From Collinsella ihumii (GTDB taxonomy: Bacteria > Actinomycetota > Coriobacteriia > Coriobacteriales > Coriobacteriaceae), in NCBI RefSeq assembly GCF_900046475.1, contig NZ_FCOU01000003.1, positions 283,713 to 347,712 on the forward strand: 64,000 bases of DNA. Reading direction: 5' to 3'. Position 1 is the first letter of the stretch; each line of letters begins with the position of its first letter. Positions 1,506 through 14,433 of this stretch are shown one piece after another. Both the position numbers and the translations under genes were made by a program. The notes beneath the pieces were generated by a model. That model made no database searches and was not told where the DNA came from. It worked only from the letters and a program-made list of their open reading frames with translations.

Positions 1506-2315
1506 ATGTCCATAGCGCCCGCACCGACCTCGGCCCAAGTGGAGCAAATATGCAAAGTTCTCGGCGATACACACAACGGCCTCACTGGATCTGAAATTGG
1601 AAGAATGCTTTCCGTACTAAGTATCGCGGATACAGACCCTTCCAATACGAAATGGAAGAGACTGTACAATGCGCTCGCCGACAGAGCGAACGGCACCGGA
1701 AAGACCACTGCCGTGTATGGCCTCGTACAATATTGTTTCGATCCTGCGCGTGGCATCGACAACGGCACGCGATACAGATGGATGATGAACGAAGTGAATC
1801 AAGTCCTCATGCTTTTAGGCATCGAAGTGCGCGATGACGGCAAGTTGCACAAAGTCCAAGTGGCGAAAACGCTGAATGAAGTTGGGCGCCGAACTAAAAA
1901 CCTCAGGAAAGCGCTTGTCGCAGCCGGTGCCCATTCTGAGGTCCTGAATTGCTGCCGCGAAGAACTTCTCGTTGATGACTACTTCCATGCCGTCCTAGAA
2001 GCGTCGAAGAGCCTTTGCGCCCGTATAAAAGCAATGTCCACGCTCGACCTCGATGGATCAAGACTGTTTGACAAAGCGCTGAACGTCAAGGATCCGTATA
2101 TAGCCTTGAACACTCTGCGGACTGAATCGGAACGTAATCAGCAAAATGGCCTCAGGGAAATGCTCAACGGCGTGATGCACCTGTTTCGCAACCCAACGGC
2201 ACACGAGCTTAGAATCCATTGGGACATCAATGAGCGGGACGCCGTCGAAGTCCTCAACCTGATCTCCCTTCTCCATAAGCTGCTTGATGGCTGTACCATT
2301 GTACCAAGGCCTTAA
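1506..2315 (+). CDS. TIGR02391 family protein (HEPN-like)
   Basis: A 269-aa soluble protein. Residues ~150-260 match the TIGR02391 pattern: YFHAVLEASKSLCARIK, then DGSRLFDKAL, then GLREMLNGVMHLFRNPTAHE. The closing RNPTAH is an R-x4-H motif typical of HEPN nucleases. The N-terminal ~140 residues are helical and unrecognised. The family is scattered in defence islands, often beside restriction-modification or abortive-infection genes, as here. AGAAGGG precedes the ATG. The molecular role is unknown; RNase activity is an inference from the HEPN motif only. Confidence 0.7.
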   Translation: MSIAPAPTSAQVEQICKVLGDTHNGLTGSEIGRMLSVLSIADTDPSNTKWKRLYNALADRANGTGKTTAVYGLVQYCFDPARGIDNGTRYRWMMNEVNQVLMLLGIEVRDDGKLHKVQVAKTLNEVGRRTKNLRKALVAAGAHSEVLNCCREELLVDDYFHAVLEASKSLCARIKAMSTLDLDGSRLFDKALNVKDPYIALNTLRTESERNQQNGLREMLNGVMHLFRNPTAHELRIHWDINERDAVEVLNLISLLHKLLDGCTIVPRP

Positions 2316-4684: not shown

Positions 4685-7600
4685 CTAGTCTACACCCAAA
4701 TTGCAAAAGCGCTCGTAAAAGACCTTGAGGCGATCGACGACACGCGCTTTCATCGTCGCGTAGGCGTTCTGCGGAGCGAATCGGGACGGCTTCTTCGTCA
4801 TGAGGTTTGCGATAGCGGTCCCCGTCTCCGGAACGCCACCATCCTTGAACGCGCGCGCCATGAGTTCGCGCGTTTCGTCCGGCTTGAGCTTCTCCTCTTC
4901 GATAATGTTAGCGATCTCGCTGTCGTATTCCACAGCGATGTAACTATGCCATTCGGCGGTCATATCTACGCTCGCGTCGAGGCTCTCGATGAAGCGCTCG
5001 ATGAGGTCACGCTTGTCGCGCAGCTCGAGGCTCGACATGATGCTGCGCTCGATGTCGGCGGCGATCGTCTTGTCGGTCCCGTTTGAGTCGTGGTACTTCT
5101 GCACGAGCATGAGGATGTAGTCGATGTTGATGTCGACCTGCTTGAGCAGCTCGACCTCGAAGACGAGGTCGTCGTTGATGATGGTGGACTCGACGTCGGT
5201 CACGCGGTACTTCTGGTAGAGGTCGGCGTACTCGCTGCGGTAGTCCTGCTCGTCGCGCGGCGTCATGGGGTCGTCGGCCTGGAAGTCGTCGAACGCCGTG
5301 AGGATGTTGCGCAGGCGCAGGATGGCGCCGAACAGGGCGATGAACGCCTTTTCCGCACCCTCGCCCTCAATGATCTGGCCGAGCGGGAACTCCTCGTAGA
5401 GCTGGTTCACCTTCTCGGTGTACTCGACGAGGTACTCCGCGTAGGGGCGCAGCAGCACGACGCCGCCGGCGTCCTTGTCGCCGAACAGGGCGATGGCGCG
5501 GTTGACCTCGTCCTCGAGGTTTCTGAAGCACACGATGTTGCCGTAGGACTTCACCTTGTTCAGGATGCGGTTCGTGCGGCTGAAGGCCTGGATGAGGCCA
5601 TGGTTCCTGAGGTCCTTGTCGACCCACAGCGTGTTCAGGGTCGTGGCGTCGAAGCCGGTGAGGAACATGTTGACCACGATGGTCATGTCCACCTGGCGCG
5701 ACTTCATGCGGTCGGAGAGGTCCTTGTAGTAGTTCTGGAAGCCCTCCGAAGACGTGTCGTAGTTCGTGCTGAACATGGCGTTGTAGTCGCCGATGGCGGC
5801 CTCGAGGAAGTCGCGGCTCGGCGTGTCGAGGCTCTCGGTGTCGAACGACTCGTCGGGAAGGCCGCATCCGTCGTCGGCCTCGTTGGGGCCGAAGCTGTAG
5901 ATGAGCGCGATCTTGAGCGGTTCGCCGCCGCGCTCAGCCATGATGCGCTTGAAGGCCGAGTAGTAGATCTTGGCCATGTCGATCGAGGCGCACGCGAAGA
6001 TGGAGTTGAAGCCCATGACGCGGTTGCCCTTGAAGACGTAGCTGCGGTTGCGCTTGGTCTTCTGGTCGTAGCGGTCGAGCACGTAGTTCACGACGGCGTC
6101 GACGCGCTCTGACGCCTTGAGGGCGCCCTCGCGGTAGATGTCGTAGACCTTCTGGTCGGGGAAGTCGTCGCGCTCGCGGATGGTCTTGATGTAGTCGATG
6201 CGGAACGGCAGGACGTTCTCGTCGCGGATGGCATCCACGATGGTGTAGGTGTGCAGCTTGTCGCCGAACGCCTGCTCGGTGGTGCGCAGCTGCGGGTTGC
6301 CGCCGCTGCCGGCGTTCTGCGCGAAGATGGGCGTGCCGGTGAATCCGAACAGGTGGTAGTTCTTGAAGTGCTTGGTGATGGCCATGTGCATCTCGCCGAA
6401 CTGGCTGCGGTGGCACTCGTCGAAGATGATGACGACGTGCGCCTGGTAGACGGGGTGCTTGGCGTTGCGCTTGATGAAGTTCGAGAGCTTCTGGATCGTG
6501 GTCACTATGATGCGGCTCTCGGGGTCGGAGAGCTGTCGGGTGAGCACCGCCGTGGAGGTGTTGCTGTCCACAGCACCCTTCTCGAAGCGGTCGTACTCCC
6601 TCATGGTCTGGTAGTCGAGGTCCTTGCGGTCCACGACGAACAGGACCTTGTCCACGCCCTCCATGCCGCTCGCGAGCTGGGCGGTCTTGAAGCTGGTGAG
6701 CGTCTTGCCGCTGCCCGTAGTGTGCCAGACGTAGCCGCCGGCGCGCAGGGTGCCGAGCATCTTCTTGTCGTTCTCGCTGATGAGGATGCGGTTCAGGATG
6801 CGCTCGGTGGCGACGATCTGGTACGGGCGCATGACGAGCAGGTTCTCGTCGACGTCGAACACGCAGTACTTCGTGAGGATGTTCAGCAGCGCGTGCTTGG
6901 AGAAGAACGTCGAGGTGAACGGGACGAGGTCGCGGATGGGCAGGTTGTCGGCGTCCGCCCACCAGCTGGTGAACTTGAAGCTGTTCGACGACTTCTTGCC
7001 GGAGCGGGCGCGCCCCGCCATCTCGGCGATGTGGTTGGAGCGTGTGGTGTTGGAGTAGTACTTGGTGTGCGTGCCGTTGCTGATGACGAAGATCTGCACG
7101 TACTCGTAGAGGCCACAGCCGCTCCAGAAGCTGTCGCGCTGGTAGCGCTCGATCTGGTTGAAGGCCTCCTCGATGGGCTTGCCGCGGCGCTTGAGCTCCA
7201 CGTGCACGAGCGGCAGGCCGTTGACGAGGACCGTCACGTCATAGCGGTTCTCGTAGGAGCCCAGCTGCGTGTACTGGTTCATGACCTGCAGGCGGTTGTT
7301 GTGGATGTTGCGCTTGTCGATGAGGCGGACGTTCTTGACCGAGCCGTCGTCGCGGTGCAGGACCTGGACGTGGTCGCGCTGGATGCGGCGGGTCTTCTGG
7401 GTGATGCCGTCGCCCTCCGAGGCGATGACGCCGCGGAAGAAGCCGCGCCACTCGCCGTCGGTGAAGGTGATGCCGTTGAGGGCCTCGAGCTGAGCGCGCA
7501 GGTTCGCGACGAGGTCGCCCTCGGTCTGAGGGGTGAAGCGCTCGTAGCCCTGGCGGGTCAGCTGCGCGATGAACGCCTTCTCGAGCGCGGCCTCGGACTG

Positions 7601-7738
7601 GTAGGCCGACGATCGTGGTCCCTCCGCCGGCTGGGCGGCGCACACCGTGGCCTGCCCGCCGAAGGCCATGACGTCGAACCTGACCGATCCGGGCAGGTCG
7701 TCTGCGAGGGGCGTTGTGTACTCGGGGCCTATGCTCAT
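4685..7738 (-). CDS. hsdR: type I restriction enzyme, endonuclease/translocase subunit HsdR
   Basis: A 1017-aa motor and nuclease subunit of the type I restriction complex; with HsdM and HsdS it translocates and cuts unmodified foreign DNA. The N-terminal nuclease domain shows VNGLPLVHVELKRRG (the ExK of the PD-(D/E)xK fold). The helicase core has Walker A TTGSGKT, the DEAD-box variant DECHRSQFG, and FTGTP. The C-terminal helical part (VFEVELLKQVDINIDYILML) fits the HsdM-contact domain. Length is normal and the frame intact. It is last in the operon hsdM-DUF4145-hsdS-GIY-YIG-hsdR and is separated from the preceding gene by 95 bases, so it may also have its own promoter. Confidence 0.97.
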   Translation of the reverse strand: MSIGPEYTTPLADDLPGSVRFDVMAFGGQATVCAAQPAEGPRSSAYQSEAALEKAFIAQLTRQGYERFTPQTEGDLVANLRAQLEALNGITFTDGEWRGFFRGVIASEGDGITQKTRRIQRDHVQVLHRDDGSVKNVRLIDKRNIHNNRLQVMNQYTQLGSYENRYDVTVLVNGLPLVHVELKRRGKPIEEAFNQIERYQRDSFWSGCGLYEYVQIFVISNGTHTKYYSNTTRSNHIAEMAGRARSGKKSSNSFKFTSWWADADNLPIRDLVPFTSTFFSKHALLNILTKYCVFDVDENLLVMRPYQIVATERILNRILISENDKKMLGTLRAGGYVWHTTGSGKTLTSFKTAQLASGMEGVDKVLFVVDRKDLDYQTMREYDRFEKGAVDSNTSTAVLTRQLSDPESRIIVTTIQKLSNFIKRNAKHPVYQAHVVIIFDECHRSQFGEMHMAITKHFKNYHLFGFTGTPIFAQNAGSGGNPQLRTTEQAFGDKLHTYTIVDAIRDENVLPFRIDYIKTIRERDDFPDQKVYDIYREGALKASERVDAVVNYVLDRYDQKTKRNRSYVFKGNRVMGFNSIFACASIDMAKIYYSAFKRIMAERGGEPLKIALIYSFGPNEADDGCGLPDESFDTESLDTPSRDFLEAAIGDYNAMFSTNYDTSSEGFQNYYKDLSDRMKSRQVDMTIVVNMFLTGFDATTLNTLWVDKDLRNHGLIQAFSRTNRILNKVKSYGNIVCFRNLEDEVNRAIALFGDKDAGGVVLLRPYAEYLVEYTEKVNQLYEEFPLGQIIEGEGAEKAFIALFGAILRLRNILTAFDDFQADDPMTPRDEQDYRSEYADLYQKYRVTDVESTIINDDLVFEVELLKQVDINIDYILMLVQKYHDSNGTDKTIAADIERSIMSSLELRDKRDLIERFIESLDASVDMTAEWHSYIAVEYDSEIANIIEEEKLKPDETRELMARAFKDGGVPETGTAIANLMTKKPSRFAPQNAYATMKARVVDRLKVFYERFCNLGVD

Positions 7739-7833: not shown

Positions 7834-8502
7834 CTAGCGGTCCGCGTCACGCTCCATGCGGTCGCGCCTTTCAGAAAGGCGCTCGCCGCCGTAGGTGAAG
7901 TGGAGCGGGCCCTGAACGCCGCATTTGCGGCCAAGGAGCTCCTTGGCGAGCGCCGAGAGCGAGGTGGTCACGCCTTTGTATTCGACGCGGGTATCGTCGA
8001 CCACGGTCGCGACCTTGGACGGATCGTTGGCGAAGGCCACTGTCTCGCCGGGCTTGATGCCGACCATGGAGAAACGGAAACGGGTACGCCTGCCCGTTGC
8101 GGCGTCCTGGCGCGCCTCTTCTGCCTCGCGCTCCTCCTCGATCTGCTCGCCCGTGGGCGTGACGCGGTGGAGCCTGTCCTCGGTGCCCGAGATGCGGGCT
8201 ATCGCCTCGAGGATGGCGTAGGCGTCCTCGGGCGCCATCTCGAAGAACTCCTTGGTGCGCTTCTGGCCGTTGAACGTCTCGATGGTACGCAGGTCGGGGT
8301 TCAGCTGGTCGATGAGCTCGTGGAGGGCCTTGTCGGTCAGCTTGTGGTCGACGTCGTAGGTCGCGTAGGCGCGGAAGGCGTACGGCAGGGCTTCTGAGCG
8401 GTTGAGCTCGCGAAGGCGCCGCTGCAGGTCGGACGCGTAGCCGATCTTGACGTACTGCGGGAAGCTGGGGTTCGTGAGGATGTAGATGACGCCCTTGGAC
8501 AT
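7834..8502 (-). CDS. GIY-YIG nuclease-fold protein with C-terminal RAMA-like domain
   Basis: 222 aa. Residues 1-90 are a GIY-YIG-type domain (GVIYILTNPSFPQYVKIGYA, where the second motif is VKIGY). Residues ~145-215 (FSMVGIKPGETVAFANDP, then VEYKGVTTSLSALAKELLG, then FTYGGERLSERRD) match the RAMA/DUF4357-like domain found fused to restriction and modification proteins and thought to read modified DNA. It lies six bases downstream of the hsdS stop, inside the type I operon, so it is likely co-translated with hsdS. Role inferred: an accessory endonuclease or modification reader of this system. Catalytic competence cannot be judged by eye. Confidence 0.75.
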   Translation of the reverse strand: MSKGVIYILTNPSFPQYVKIGYASDLQRRLRELNRSEALPYAFRAYATYDVDHKLTDKALHELIDQLNPDLRTIETFNGQKRTKEFFEMAPEDAYAILEAIARISGTEDRLHRVTPTGEQIEEEREAEEARQDAATGRRTRFRFSMVGIKPGETVAFANDPSKVATVVDDTRVEYKGVTTSLSALAKELLGRKCGVQGPLHFTYGGERLSERRDRMERDADR

Positions 8503-8508
8503 GACGCT

Positions 8509-9693
8509 TTACGCCTCCTTGCGGGGGAAGTCGAGGAGCTTGTCGCGGTAGTACTCGTACTGCTTGCGGCGCGCCTCGATCTCGGCGGGGAGGCCGTCGG
8601 CGAGGGAGGTCGTGAGCGCGTCGAAGCGGTCGAGGATGTCGGCGACCTGCTGCTGGACGTGGAGGGGCGGAAGCGGGATTTCGACTTTCGATAGGCTTTT
8701 GCCATTCGTAAGGGCTCTTGTTGTGAAGCTGCTGTACCTGACTATCTGACTTCTTACAGAAAACGATGAGAAACAGTAGGCACAATACTCTGGAAGCAAG
8801 CGATTATCTTTCGGCCTGCCCCGCAAGACGAATCCGCTGAACACGCCTTCTGGGACGTCCTCCAATGCAACGGAGGCGATGCCGACCTCTTCTTGTGTTT
8901 CCGATGTTCTGGTAAAGAATACGTCGCCCCTTTTGACATCGTATCTGTTGCGTTCTGCCTCATTTGCATCCACTAGACCCTTTAGGCAATCTCGGGTAAT
9001 TGCATTGCGCTTGTATACGTCAACGTAATTGACTATTGGTACGCCGCGTCCAAAAAACTCTTTGTTTTTGTTGATTCCGTTCTTGAATTCAAACAGCTCT
9101 CCAACTTTGCAAAGAGCGACTTCACTTCCTGCCATCTGCTCGAGGCTCTCGCGGGACAGCAACTCGTCGCGGTAGTGGGCGTACTGGGCCTTGCGCGCCT
9201 CCAGCTCCGCCTCCAGCTCCGCCTCCAGCTCCGCGAAGGCGTCTAACATACGAACGATTTCGCTTTGAACTTCTAGAGGTGGTACTGGAATCAGCACTTT
9301 ATACAGCGCACTCTGGGTGAGCGAAGGGCGAGCCGCGCTGCCTGTAGCAAGGTTCTCAATATGCTCATTAAGCATTACGTGATAGAAGAACCTCGGCAGC
9401 ATTTTTGATTCATCTATCTCGGTATAAAACACCGTATCAACGTTCCAAATTGGCCCGTCAACATAGAAAATGTTGCTTACTGATCCCTTTCGGGGAAGCA
9501 GAACGGTCGGACCCACATGTGATGCGGAGTCGACGAACTTGTCCATGGGGCCTCCGCTGCCGTAAACAGGGACCTTGCCCTCGCCGAGACCTTTGTAATC
9601 CTTTCCGTTTTTGATTGCCGCTATATCTCTGATAGAGCGGTACTCTATCCCATCCGGGCAGAGACTGCTGATTATCTCATCGATTCGACTCAT
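8509..9693 (-). CDS. hsdS: type I restriction enzyme specificity subunit HsdS
   Basis: 394 aa, two target-recognition domains (about 1-150 and 215-345), each followed by a conserved helix: PPLEVQSEIVRMLDAF...ARKAQYAHYRDELLS in the middle and PPLHVQQQVADILDRFDAL...RRKQYEYYRDKLLDF at the end. The middle helix contains ELEA repeated three times, encoded by three perfect 12-bp repeats. The start is the ATG at 9691-9693 (MSRIDEIISSLCPDG, the usual HsdS opening) with GGGAGGAA seven bases upstream, although the frame stays open further upstream. It overlaps the stop of the preceding DUF4145 gene by 17 bases. HsdS dictates the split DNA target of both methylation and cleavage. Confidence 0.95.
   Translation of the reverse strand: MSRIDEIISSLCPDGIEYRSIRDIAAIKNGKDYKGLGEGKVPVYGSGGPMDKFVDSASHVGPTVLLPRKGSVSNIFYVDGPIWNVDTVFYTEIDESKMLPRFFYHVMLNEHIENLATGSAARPSLTQSALYKVLIPVPPLEVQSEIVRMLDAFAELEAELEAELEARKAQYAHYRDELLSRESLEQMAGSEVALCKVGELFEFKNGINKNKEFFGRGVPIVNYVDVYKRNAITRDCLKGLVDANEAERNRYDVKRGDVFFTRTSETQEEVGIASVALEDVPEGVFSGFVLRGRPKDNRLLPEYCAYCFSSFSVRSQIVRYSSFTTRALTNGKSLSKVEIPLPPLHVQQQVADILDRFDALTTSLADGLPAEIEARRKQYEYYRDKLLDFPRKEA
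9197..9232 (-). repeat. three tandem 12-bp repeats in hsdS spacer helix
   Basis: GCCTCCAGCTCC occurs three times without a mismatch at 9197-9208, 9209-9220 and 9221-9232 (plus-strand reading), each encoding the tetrapeptide ELEA in the helix that separates the two target-recognition domains. Confidence 0.95.
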
Positions 9694-10396
9694 TGTGTTC
9701 CTCCCGCTGCGCTTTCTTCCGTCTTTCAGCGTAAGCCATTGCCTGTGAAACGAGGGATGGGTTTGAGTACAGGTCATCGATTATGGAATCAAGGATCTGG
9801 ATTACGATTTCTGTGTACTCCCTATCGACCGGCTCGAGCACGTTGTGCACGTAATCGTTGCCGCAGAGACGTATGGCTGTTGCCGCCTCCGCCGTGCGTG
9901 ACGTAATCTTTCCCGCCTTCTTTAGGTCCTCTATGCGTTCGTACAGTTTTTTCTTGGATGGCATCTCCTCTTGATCGGCAACGATGCCTTCAACGGCGCT
10001 TCTCGCAAGTATCACTGCTGCACGATTTGCTCCAATTTCCCGGCATTTGTGAACCTCGTTCGCTATTGAGGCGATACCATCGGGCACATTTGGATAGTCT
10101 TTGCCCATAGGTTCGATTGGAAGCCAGCGAACGATGTGGTCCTCTGGGTCGTAACTACTTCTCGCTTCTTCTAGTGTCACACGGACTTCGGCGATGTTTG
10201 GGAATCCACAGTTAACGCAGGAGTAGATGAATAATCCCTCGAATGGGCTGAACTCGTCATCTTTTGCAAAACGGGGATCGGGAAACAAGATGGGCATATC
10301 GTAGGAGCTCATTAATGCACGCATCGAGTCTGCCCCGTTTCTTGGTGCAACCATCTGGGCGCGCTCATGGCAGTGCCAACAAATCGTCGATGCCAT
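9677..10396 (-). CDS. DUF4145 domain-containing protein
   Basis: 239 aa, ATG at 10394-10396, four bases after the hsdM stop, so it is a true operon member. N-terminal CWHC and, ~45 residues later, CVNC form a probable zinc knuckle. Residues ~125-220 (IGANRAAVILARSAVEGIVAD then AIRLCGNDYVHNV) are the helical DUF4145 domain, a frequent passenger in restriction-modification operons. The frame is open upstream into hsdM, but that extension is the shadow of hsdM and is not used. Function in the complex is not known. Confidence 0.8.
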   Translation of the reverse strand: MASTICWHCHERAQMVAPRNGADSMRALMSSYDMPILFPDPRFAKDDEFSPFEGLFIYSCVNCGFPNIAEVRVTLEEARSSYDPEDHIVRWLPIEPMGKDYPNVPDGIASIANEVHKCREIGANRAAVILARSAVEGIVADQEEMPSKKKLYERIEDLKKAGKITSRTAEAATAIRLCGNDYVHNVLEPVDREYTEIVIQILDSIIDDLYSNPSLVSQAMAYAERRKKAQREEHNESNR

Positions 10397-10400
10397 AGCC

Positions 10401-11981
10401 TCACGCCTCCAGTTCCGCCACGATGGCGTCAATCTGCTCGCGGAGCTCCTGCTCGCGGGCGACGATTCCCTTGATACGGGCATTGAGCTCCGCGATGTCG
10501 ATCTTCTCGCGGGTGTCGGGCTTCTCGACGTAAGTTCCGATGGAAAGGTTGGCTTCGTTGGCAAGCACCTCGTCGTTGGCAACCAGTTTGGAGAAATACT
10601 CCTCTTCCTTACGGAAGAGCACGGTTTCTGCGACGTGGTCGATGTGCTCGGGCATGAGCTTGTTCTTCGAGTCCTGGCGGGCGAACTCACAGCTTGCGTC
10701 GACGAACAGGATGTCGCTCGTCGTCTTCGACTTCTTGAGGACGAGCACGCAGGTGGCGATGCTCGTGCCGAAGAAGAGGTCGGCGGGCAGCTGGATGACG
10801 GCGTCGACGTAGTTGTTCCTGACGAGGTACTCGCGGATCTTCTTTTCTGCTCTGCCTCGATACAAAACACCTGGAAACTCGACGATGGCCGCGGTCCCTT
10901 CTGTGGAGAGCCAGGACAGCATGTGCATGGTGAAGGCGAGATCGGCAAAACCTTCGGGCGCAAGAACGCCCGCCGGGCTGAAGCGCGGGTCGTTGATGTT
11001 CAGCGGGTTGCTCTTGCCCTCCCACTTCGTGGAGTAGGGCGGGTTGGAGACGATGGCGTCGAACGGCTCGTCGTCCCAGTGGGCGGGATGCACGAGCGTG
11101 TCGCCGTAGGCGATGTCGAACTTGTCGAAGTTGACGTCGTGCAGGAACATGTTGATGCGGGCGAGGTTGTAGGTGGTGAGGTTCTTCTCCTGACCGAAGA
11201 AGCCCGTTCGGACGTTGTCCGCGCCGAGCACCTTGGCGAACTTGAGCATGAGGCCGCCCGACCCGCAGCAGGGGTCGTAGACCTTGTTCACGCTCGAACG
11301 GCCCGCCGCGGCGATGCGCGCGAGGAGCTCGCCGACCTCCTGCGGGGTGAAGAACTCGCCGCCCGACTTGCCGGCGCCGCTCGCGTACATGGTCATGAGG
11401 AACTCGTAGGCGTCGCCGAAGGCATCGATCTCGTTGTCCTTGAGGCCGCCGCCGAAGTCGAGGCCGCCGATCTTGTTGACGAGCTTGACGAGCTTCTTGT
11501 TGCGCTCCTCGAGCGTGGTGCCGAGCTTGGGACTGTTGACGTCGACGTCGTCGAACAGGCCCTTGAGGGCGAATTCGCTGTCGGTGCCTACGGCTGACCC
11601 CTCAATACTCTTGAAGACGCGTGCGAGGCTTTCATTGATGTCTTCGCCGTCCTCCTTGAGTTTCATACCGTCTTTGTCGACAGTCTCGAGGACGCGAGAG
11701 AACAACTCGCTCGGAAGGATGAAGAAGCCCTTTTCCTTAACGGTGTCCTCACGCCCCCATTCGGCGTCTTCGTCCGAAAGCGCCGCGTAATCGAAGTCGG
11801 GGTCGTCCTCCTGCTCGGCAAGATAGTCGCAAAGGTTCTCGCTAATGAAGCGGTAGAACAACATGCCGAGTACATACTGTTTGAAGTCCCATCCGTCGAT
11901 ACTGCCTCGCAAATCTTCGGCGATGCTCCAGATGGTCTTGTGCAGCTCGGAGCGCTGCTGCTCTTTGGTGGTATCTGCCAC
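10401..11981 (-). CDS. hsdM: type I DNA adenine methyltransferase subunit HsdM
   Basis: 526 aa, first gene of the type I operon. N-terminal helical domain (TIWSIAEDLRGSIDGWDFKQYVLGMLFYRF, split here by family convention) precedes a Rossmann methyltransferase with the SAM motif VYDPCCGSGGLML and catalytic motif IV SNPPYS, diagnostic of N6-adenine methylases. The C-terminal coiled helix (EQELREQIDAIVAELEA) contacts HsdS. GGAGTGAGCC lies upstream of the ATG. Together with HsdS it forms the modification enzyme that protects host DNA. Confidence 0.97.
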   Translation of the reverse strand: MADTTKEQQRSELHKTIWSIAEDLRGSIDGWDFKQYVLGMLFYRFISENLCDYLAEQEDDPDFDYAALSDEDAEWGREDTVKEKGFFILPSELFSRVLETVDKDGMKLKEDGEDINESLARVFKSIEGSAVGTDSEFALKGLFDDVDVNSPKLGTTLEERNKKLVKLVNKIGGLDFGGGLKDNEIDAFGDAYEFLMTMYASGAGKSGGEFFTPQEVGELLARIAAAGRSSVNKVYDPCCGSGGLMLKFAKVLGADNVRTGFFGQEKNLTTYNLARINMFLHDVNFDKFDIAYGDTLVHPAHWDDEPFDAIVSNPPYSTKWEGKSNPLNINDPRFSPAGVLAPEGFADLAFTMHMLSWLSTEGTAAIVEFPGVLYRGRAEKKIREYLVRNNYVDAVIQLPADLFFGTSIATCVLVLKKSKTTSDILFVDASCEFARQDSKNKLMPEHIDHVAETVLFRKEEEYFSKLVANDEVLANEANLSIGTYVEKPDTREKIDIAELNARIKGIVAREQELREQIDAIVAELEA

Positions 11982-12705: not shown

Positions 12706-14433
12706 CTAGGCCTCCATGTCGAACAGGTCGGTGATTTCTGCCCGCGCGCGCTCGAGACGCATCTTGAGGATGCCGATCTCGTCGAGCTTCGCACGGTATG
12801 CGGTCCCCACGCGCCTCTGGGCATCGAGGTCCACGAGAGGGACCGGCATGCCCCTAAGCGCGCCGAGCGAGAGCGCCCGGAGCGTGGTCCCCCGCGAAGC
12901 GGCTTCGAGCAGCCTCGCCCCCCGCGGGCTGCTGAGGAAGGAGGCCACGTAGTAGGGGTCGGCGCGCTGCGCATCGAGCCTGATGATGAAGAAGTTTCCG
13001 CTGGCGATCAGCTTGCGGCCATCCGCCACCTCCGCGACGGCGATTCTAAAGGGAGAGCCGCTCTTGGACACGAGCAGGTCGCCGGTGGCGACATACCCCT
13101 TCTCCAGCCCGCCGTCGAGCTTGCCGATATGCTGCAGCTCCCCCTCGATGGCACCGTCGGCTACGTTCGAGAGGTTGAGGTAGTCGACACCCGTATCCTC
13201 GGTGCAGGAGATGGCGTCCAGCGCGGAGGCGCCGATGCCGGCGCCCCTCCGGATGTCGAGGGCCAGGCTCCCGAGCTCCACCGCGTTCTCGATCTCGATG
13301 GCCTCCTCGAAATACTGGGACACGAGGAGGGAGTAGCCGTGTCCGGCGAGTTCGGAGATGCTGACGCTGGAGCTCCTCTCCCCGTCGTTCTCGAGCCTGC
13401 GGATGATCTCGTCGATCGCGTCCTCCCCGAGCGTTGACCCCCTGCGCTCCTTGGTGCCGAGGTCGGTCGCGTCGACAAGCCTGACCGCGGAGGTGCTTCC
13501 GCCTCCGAAGACGATGAGCGCCGTTCCGATGTTGGTCCAAGGGAAGAAGAGTCCCTCGGGGAGCGCGACGACGGCACGGATCCAGCCGTTCTCGATGAAG
13601 TACTTCCGAATCCTCGCGTCGGCCCCGTTGAACAGCGCGCCGTTCGATGAGATGCCGACCGCGGTCCCCGCCGCAGGGTCGATGGAGTCGACCAGCAGGC
13701 GGTTGAACACCCAGTCCGAGGAGACTGGGCGTCCGTACTCGGGCAGGCCTTGGAGCGCCCTGCCCACGAACCCGGAGTCGCTCCTGAGCTTCTTGGTGCG
13801 CATGCCCCACGGGTAGTTGGAGAAGACCTTGTCCGCGCCGCGCGTGCCGACGCTGTCCTCGTAGTAGGAAAACATGTCCCCCTCGCTGTAGGCGACCTGA
13901 GATCCGGTGATTCGCGCCCGCACGCGGGCGGCGGCGACGAAGCTCGGTACGATCTCAACGCCCTCGGAGTGCGTTCCCGCGCCCAGTTCGGCGGCACGCT
14001 CTAGAAAGCCTCCAGCCCCGCACCCGTAATCGACGAGCTTGTCGCCGGGCTTGACATCCAGGATGCGAAGCGCGAGATCCGTGATGCAGTCAGGCGTGAA
14101 GTGCGCCCCGTTCATCGCCGAGCCCGGCTTGAGCCCGGCTGCGAGAAATGCCTCCAGCGCGCCAGCGTCGATCCTGCCCAGCATCTCCTCGATACCCTCG
14201 CTGTCGATACCGGCGGTTGCCTTCCGGAGGGCGGATTCGATGAGGTCGTCGCCGTCTGCCGCGCAGGCTATCGCATCCTCCGGCGTCGTGAACCTGCGAG
14301 ATCTACTTTTGATGGTGTGCACGAGATAGGCGCACAGGTAGGTTTGCACCTCGTCACGGGTGTCGAAAGACCTGTGAATGATGTTGGCGACTCCGGAGAT
14401 GGCGCGGTCGTTCATTTTGTTCCCGAAAATCAA
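12706..14433 (-). CDS. N6-adenine DNA methylase with fused target-recognition domain
   Basis: 575 aa combining M and S functions. After a helical N-terminus, residues ~125-300 are a class I methyltransferase: LKPGSAMNGAHFTPDCITDL, SAM motif KLVDYGCGAGGFLERA, and FSNYPWGM in place of the usual NPPY/F. Residues ~400-570 resemble one HsdS half (YLNLSNVADGAIEGE, DLLVSKSGSPFRIAVAE, PYYVASFLSSPRGARLLEAA, ending in a helical tail LDEIGILKMRLERARAEI). A TTG at 14431-14433 is the probable start because AAAGGAG lies six bases upstream; an ATG six codons later lacks a site. No nuclease gene is linked except the downstream 177-aa protein and the nearby type I operon. Confidence 0.85.
   Translation of the reverse strand: MIFGNKMNDRAISGVANIIHRSFDTRDEVQTYLCAYLVHTIKSRSRRFTTPEDAIACAADGDDLIESALRKATAGIDSEGIEEMLGRIDAGALEAFLAAGLKPGSAMNGAHFTPDCITDLALRILDVKPGDKLVDYGCGAGGFLERAAELGAGTHSEGVEIVPSFVAAARVRARITGSQVAYSEGDMFSYYEDSVGTRGADKVFSNYPWGMRTKKLRSDSGFVGRALQGLPEYGRPVSSDWVFNRLLVDSIDPAAGTAVGISSNGALFNGADARIRKYFIENGWIRAVVALPEGLFFPWTNIGTALIVFGGGSTSAVRLVDATDLGTKERRGSTLGEDAIDEIIRRLENDGERSSSVSISELAGHGYSLLVSQYFEEAIEIENAVELGSLALDIRRGAGIGASALDAISCTEDTGVDYLNLSNVADGAIEGELQHIGKLDGGLEKGYVATGDLLVSKSGSPFRIAVAEVADGRKLIASGNFFIIRLDAQRADPYYVASFLSSPRGARLLEAASRGTTLRALSLGALRGMPVPLVDLDAQRRVGTAYRAKLDEIGILKMRLERARAEITDLFDMEA

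Follow-up and report, generated by a model that had tools for sequence, protein, structure and literature searches.

The window analysed here, a 64-kb stretch of DNA from Collinsella ihumii, carries on its minus strand a type I restriction-modification operon whose specificity gene, hsdS, contains a short perfect tandem repeat. The features of the locus are as follows:

4685 to 7738, minus strand: hsdR, with an EcoR124_C domain
7834 to 8502, minus strand: T5orf172-domain gene between hsdS and hsdR (domain search; PADLOC candidate PDC-S57)
8509 to 9693, minus strand: hsdS, 394 aa, an intact specificity subunit with two domains (start placed by comparison with homologues)
8536 to 8664, minus strand: distal helical region of HsdS, residues 344-386, counterpart of the central helix and of fixed length in relatives (helix lengths and model)
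8665 to 9126, minus strand: second target recognition domain, approximate, residues 190-343 (domain search and model)
9160 to 9276, minus strand: central connecting helix, residues 140-178, which holds the repeat (model and alignment to EcoR124I 7bst)
9196 to 9234, minus strand: perfect period-12 tract of 39 bp, 3.25 copies of GAGCTGGAGGCG (ELEA), read from the sequence
9277 to 9645, minus strand: first target recognition domain, approximate, residues 17-139 (structure model and Pfam Methylase_S)
9677 to 10396, minus strand: DUF4145 gene between hsdM and hsdS, with a 17-nt overlap with the hsdS start (domain search)
10401 to 11981, minus strand: hsdM, an EcoR124-like methyltransferase (TIGR00497)

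The listed open reading frame of hsdS extends to 9777, and its likely start lies at 9693 (MSRIDEIISSLCPDG), as in relatives. The hsdM, hsdS and hsdR genes are each a full-length open reading frame on the same strand, in the order M-S-R also seen at an E. coli plasmid locus (L115), here with the DUF4145 and T5orf172 genes inserted. The preliminary description had taken the enzyme to be of EcoR124 type, and both large subunits bear this out: HsdR carries the EcoR124_C domain (1.6e-62) and scores 809 bits against the EcoR124 HsdR chains, HsdM matches TIGR00497 (1e-203) and scores 563 bits against EcoR124 HsdM (7bst_D), and EcoR124 provides the best solved relatives of both. Judged from its sequence, the system is a complete type IC (EcoR124 family) restriction-modification system by every feature tested.

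Other genes of possible defence function lie nearby. A gene adjoining the hsd operon (12706-14433, minus strand) encodes a protein of 575 aa in which an N6-MTase domain precedes a region matching type I specificity models; this protein looks like a single-chain methyltransferase-specificity fusion. The T5orf172 protein is a full-length match to the candidate defence model PDC-S57 (5e-99), and a Hypoth_Ymh protein (1506-2315, plus strand), about 2.4 kb past the end of hsdR, matches PADLOC PD-Lambda-3_B (1.6e-66) and is a possible further defence gene. A second hsdS, of 420 aa, is present on another contig of the same genome (G000; contig C26, 3529-4605; L003, L004), with no central-helix motif listed for it. 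An invertible hsdS arrangement (shufflon) was considered and rejected, as the locus holds one hsdS and the single inverted pair of at least 18 nt between 4500 and 14600 (23 nt, 83%) lies outside it.

HsdS has two Methylase_S stretches by Pfam and combines two recognition domains with a tandem tetra-residue repeat in the central helix; at the DNA level this repeat is perfect and in frame within hsdS, a feature of repeat-variable hsdS genes. An AlphaFold2 model of HsdS was built from a 24-sequence alignment (31 proteins requested, 24 aligned), with a mean pLDDT of 90 and a pTM of 0.64. A Foldseek search with this model returned HsdS structures, the top TM-score (0.72) belonging to EcoR124I HsdS (7bst_A, rank 5 by E-value). 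The repeat, residues 154-166, falls inside one unbroken model helix spanning residues 140-178, where the surrounding 10-residue blocks score 80-90, so the ELEA units are placed by the model, as had been proposed, in the helix that joins the recognition domains.

The three perfect 12-bp units described previously at 9197-9232 are present, and form part of the longer 39-bp run, which reads on the minus strand as GCG(GAGCTGGAGGCG)x3 and encodes A-ELEA-ELEA-ELEA. No second perfect tract that reaches 30 bp and 2.5 copies at periods of 4-30 occurs in the 64-kb window. Helices often have an ELEA composition, and glutamate is encoded here mainly by GAG (72%), both of which would fit a chance product of ordinary coiled-coil composition in a GC-rich gene, with no role in spacing. 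Given ELEA three times over, however, three identical 12-bp units would arise with a probability of about 0.2% (0.002) if codons were drawn as in the long open reading frames of the window, and the DNA identity therefore exceeds what the protein demands. Relatives from many phyla carry a repeat at the same helix position, and in enteric systems the AEL-x-AEL stretch of the adjacent HsdM mostly lacks such identity in DNA. We therefore consider chance composition very improbable. The shortness of the tract counts against a spacer-setting role.

The central helix (LDAFAELEAELEAELEARKAQYAHYRDEL) aligns by phmmer, ungapped, with a 29-residue stretch of 7bst, and the first ELEA unit aligns with non-repeated residues of EcoR124I. 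The PDB names the 7bst molecule EcoR124II and titles the entry EcoR124I; its sequence has two TAEL units, which PMC3874165 assigns to EcoR124I, and with the entry title this led us to treat 7bst as EcoR124I. The three ELEA copies thus match a two-TAEL helix, with a predicted gap class of 6 bp. Three ELEA copies are not equivalent here to the three-repeat form of EcoR124, as the helix length is that of EcoR124I and not that of the 7-bp form. The earlier proposal that repeat number probably sets the spacing of the target agrees with the established mechanism for the class, with the four-residue steps seen in relatives and with alleles differing by one unit; the gap class is corrected to a predicted 6 bp.

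Helix length was compared, from the L of LD.F to a conserved R, in 67 HsdS reading frames with both helix anchors, drawn from a contig scan (best 80 of 572) and a genus search that together gave 114 loci plus the window. The central helix measures 13 residues in 3 of these, 17 in 39, 21 in 20, 25 in 2 and 29 in 1, and the remaining two frames (L042, L049) were mis-anchored and have 17 by eye. The distal helix is 21 residues long in 71 of 73 cases, the exceptions (L071, L114) also being 21 by eye. Among the 67 related proteins, the central helix thus varies in four-residue steps only, whereas its distal counterpart is fixed. The window HsdS has 17 residues, as do those of genus members G022 and G021 (L007, L009), each with three units, against 25 residues and five ELEA units in G028 (L006). 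This sole contrast within the genus is one between different specificity alleles.

Alleles that differ by exactly one unit were found among relatives. Two pairs from E. coli plasmids are identical apart from one 12-bp unit in the repeat (L119 and L120, with 0 substitutions over 1272 bp, and likewise L121 and L122), and a third (L116 and L117) differs by one substitution and one unit. In all, 15 pairs had at least 95% identity over 900 nt among all fetched hsdS genes, E. coli plasmids and IMG/VR contigs included; 8 of the 15, from four allele families, carry an indel, and every indel is of 12 bp. Its position is within the repeat wherever the repeat helix is visible in both members, and it was mapped there in the E. 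coli plasmid alleles. Substitutions beside the indel number 0-2 in three allele families and 19 in the fourth (L215/L216). Across 5,426 E. coli genomes, one hsdS allele occurs at a query coverage of at least 80% in 320; the 14 full-coverage matches among 60 rows sampled down the ranking span 1284 bp in 8 cases and 1272 bp in 6, while a second allele, at the same coverage in 6 genomes, spans 1128 bp in 2 and 1140 bp in the remaining 4, a 12-bp difference read here from match coordinates and confirmed by sequence for the plasmid loci only. Such recurrence of one-unit variants among E. coli plasmid systems is relevant when motifs are assigned to hsdS from a single assembly. Another E. coli plasmid, pPSS-13_1 (L123), has two units altered alike (TAGL twice), as if slippage had copied a point mutation.

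These variants bear on whether the repeat sets the gap while its number is effectively fixed in the lineage, with no switchable specificity. Neither a second C. ihumii genome nor a copy of the window's hsdS allele was found in the genus (43 genomes, including its own) or the family (65), nor was a copy of the allele found in the viral contigs, plasmids or phages searched; the best relative of the first recognition domain (TRD1) is 67% identical (L055). The absence of variants of this allele from genus, family and viral contigs would suit a static spacer, as would the three units shared by the window, L007 and L009 as against five in L006. On the other side stand the identity of the units in DNA beyond codon bias, the one-unit variants of relatives, which in three of these four families carry few further substitutions, and the behaviour of Mycoplasma pneumoniae, where, according to PMC4537597, 7 of 10 hsdS genes contain a 12-bp repeat and 6 of them differ among strains, a few even among passages; PMC8836594 gives the same variation for other isolates. 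On balance, we regard a fixed unit number as possible but doubtful.

The identity of units within a gene is general among relatives. In 65 helices of standard length, out of the 67 frames, the same residue four positions apart has the same codon in 465 of 526 cases, where the codon use of the individual genes would predict 213. In viral contigs, a codon-neutral pattern recovered 37 genes, in 35 of which the two sampled units are identical (0.85 expected), and in two phylum-wide scans, with matches in 9 of 296 and 6 of 299 genomes, two units are identical within the gene in 15 of 15. Such within-gene identity is the signature that slippage or unequal crossing-over leaves.

Conservation between genes is a separate matter. 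For 64 of the 67 frames, the repeat codons for Glu, Leu and Thr agree between genes above expectation (Leu 0.47-0.50 against 0.20; Thr 0.69-0.82 against 0.33), with no such excess at the third bases of Ala, in the downstream R..QYxYYR block or in the distal helix. The viral-contig sample behaves similarly (Glu 0.84 against 0.52 expected, Leu 0.38-0.40 against 0.18, Thr 0.51-0.58 against 0.30), with the flank near expectation. In a pooled sample of 79 genes in 51 clusters, which required an exact AEL-x-AEL protein repeat and whose genes are not independent, Glu-Leu is written GAGCT in 45 of 50 usable clusters, where 13.1 are expected. Elsewhere in those genes the figure is 36 of 162, in neighbouring long reading frames it averages 37% (71 loci), and in AT-rich genes (GC3 <0.3) the tract still has GAGCT in 32 of 36. 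As a control, AEL-x-AEL spacings mostly from the enteric HsdM C-terminus have GAGCT in 31 of 56, with non-identical units in 22 of 28 tracts, one of the 28 (L104) being an HsdS helix with masked bases. The C-terminus of enteric type IC HsdM has an AELNAEL stretch of its own (e.g. L117, around 1351), mostly not homogenised in DNA. GAGCT is somewhat rarer in imperfect helices (17 of 24, against 139 of 161), and a plain pairwise count over all residues, uncorrected for codon degeneracy, shows a small difference between tract (0.52) and flank (0.46). In M. pneumoniae, units mostly read CCGAGCT (6 of 7), according to PMC4537597.

The 64 genes, many of them from gut Clostridia, had suggested that the whole 12-bp unit is conserved across phyla; this was rejected, as units differ between genes (GAGCTTACAGCA, GAGCTGACCGCC, GAACTTACCGCC and others) in the phylum-wide scans. 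Some genes of these two scans share flanking codons too, which points to transfer, and an appearance of constraint could arise if the tract itself had been transferred; given the differing units and shared flanks, we retain only the weaker statement about GAGCT. Hairpin folding, considered because AGCT is a palindrome, was likewise rejected, since real tracts fold no better than synonymous ones: the mean difference is +0.22 kcal/mol on one strand and 0.00 kcal/mol on the other, and the real tract is lower in 39 and 36 of 79. We tentatively propose, at a little short of even odds, that the 12-bp unit, and GAGCT in particular, is also a DNA-level element, maintained in distant bacteria by an influence on the DNA such as a requirement for recombination or slippage, while adjacent codons for residues just as conserved drift freely. 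No report of this codon-level conservation was found in the literature searched, which was covered in part, and the lead may be new. If it holds, the repeat would be an unusual case of a coding tract selected at the DNA level, linking domain shuffling with gap switching.

Our best guess for the cause of GAGCT conservation is a recombination handle, because identity switches at the tract in 3 of the 11 half-gene pairs compared. A stronger form holds that the tract is mainly a site of homologous recombination by which hsdS genes exchange N- or C-terminal recognition domains, with change in copy number a by-product. Among the 11 pairs, which we chose ourselves, L068/L035, L098/L096 and L106/L093 each share one recognition domain, show their change in DNA identity at the tract or beside it and differ in unit number, whereas identity in L077/L047 changes just downstream of the tract and in other pairs diffusely. 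We hold a principal role of this kind to be rather less than probable; it is compatible with the spacer-setting reading, the two not being exclusive.

With a probability of roughly 0.87, we interpret the tract as the spacer-setting repeat of a type IC system, in which helix length sets the distance between half-sites and unit number changes by whole-unit slippage or unequal crossing-over. Five observations carry this reading: the sequence itself, the family of the system, the position in the helix, and, in relatives, the quantised length and the one-unit variants. Each 12-bp unit would add four residues, about one helical turn, between the recognition domains, and unit number would thereby determine the spacing of the half-sites in the DNA target. 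The present number would give the EcoR124I helix length, with methylated adenines predicted to lie 7 nt apart, which in EcoR124I terms is a 6-bp gap, and each added unit would widen the gap by 1 bp. Units would remain identical in DNA through slippage or unequal crossing-over, by which they are copied and removed whole with the frame left unbroken, and unit number would presumably change in C. ihumii as well. This yields a concrete and cheap prediction, namely an EcoR124I-like separation of methylated adenines that grows by 1 bp per unit.

The mechanism given in the preliminary description is right for the class, since published accounts tie one-unit changes to 1-bp changes in gap. Two versus three TAEL units correspond to N6 versus N7, with 7 nt between methylated adenines for EcoR124I (PMC3874165), and NgoAV methylates GACN6TGC with one LEAT and GACN7TGC with two, as determined by PacBio (PMC6789123). 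The same paper includes a gonococcal strain with an intact one-repeat HsdS in which the expected motif is unmethylated, which counts against the rule. PMC10030836 names TAEL, LEAT, SEAL and TSEL among the repeats of type IC and describes Staphylococcus xylosus systems related to type IC that have no such repeats, yet whose gaps differ, so repeats are not the sole possible determinant of the gap. ELEA is one more unit sequence of an established mechanism, and ordinary in kind.

Among known systems, EcoR124I (type IC; 7bst) resembles the window in the homology of HsdM, HsdR and HsdS, in a 12-bp repeat in the first connecting helix and in helix length, both measuring 29 residues when counted from LD.F through the conserved block; it differs in its unit (TAEL, where the window has ELEA, GAGCTGGAGGCG), in its recognition domains and in lacking the two extra genes within the operon. 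EcoR124II and EcoDXXI, with three TAEL, follow the same repeat principle (PMC3874165), but their helix is one unit longer and their gap is 7 bp. In NgoAV of Neisseria gonorrhoeae (LEAT), repeat number has likewise been tied to gap length by PacBio (PMC6789123), and that system also has a homopolymer frameshift switch, whereas the window hsdS is one open frame. The M. pneumoniae HsdS family (AELS/TELS; PMC4537597) shares the 12-bp repeat in the first dimerisation helix and, unlike the window, comprises ten hsdS genes with a broken hsdR and up to tens of units.
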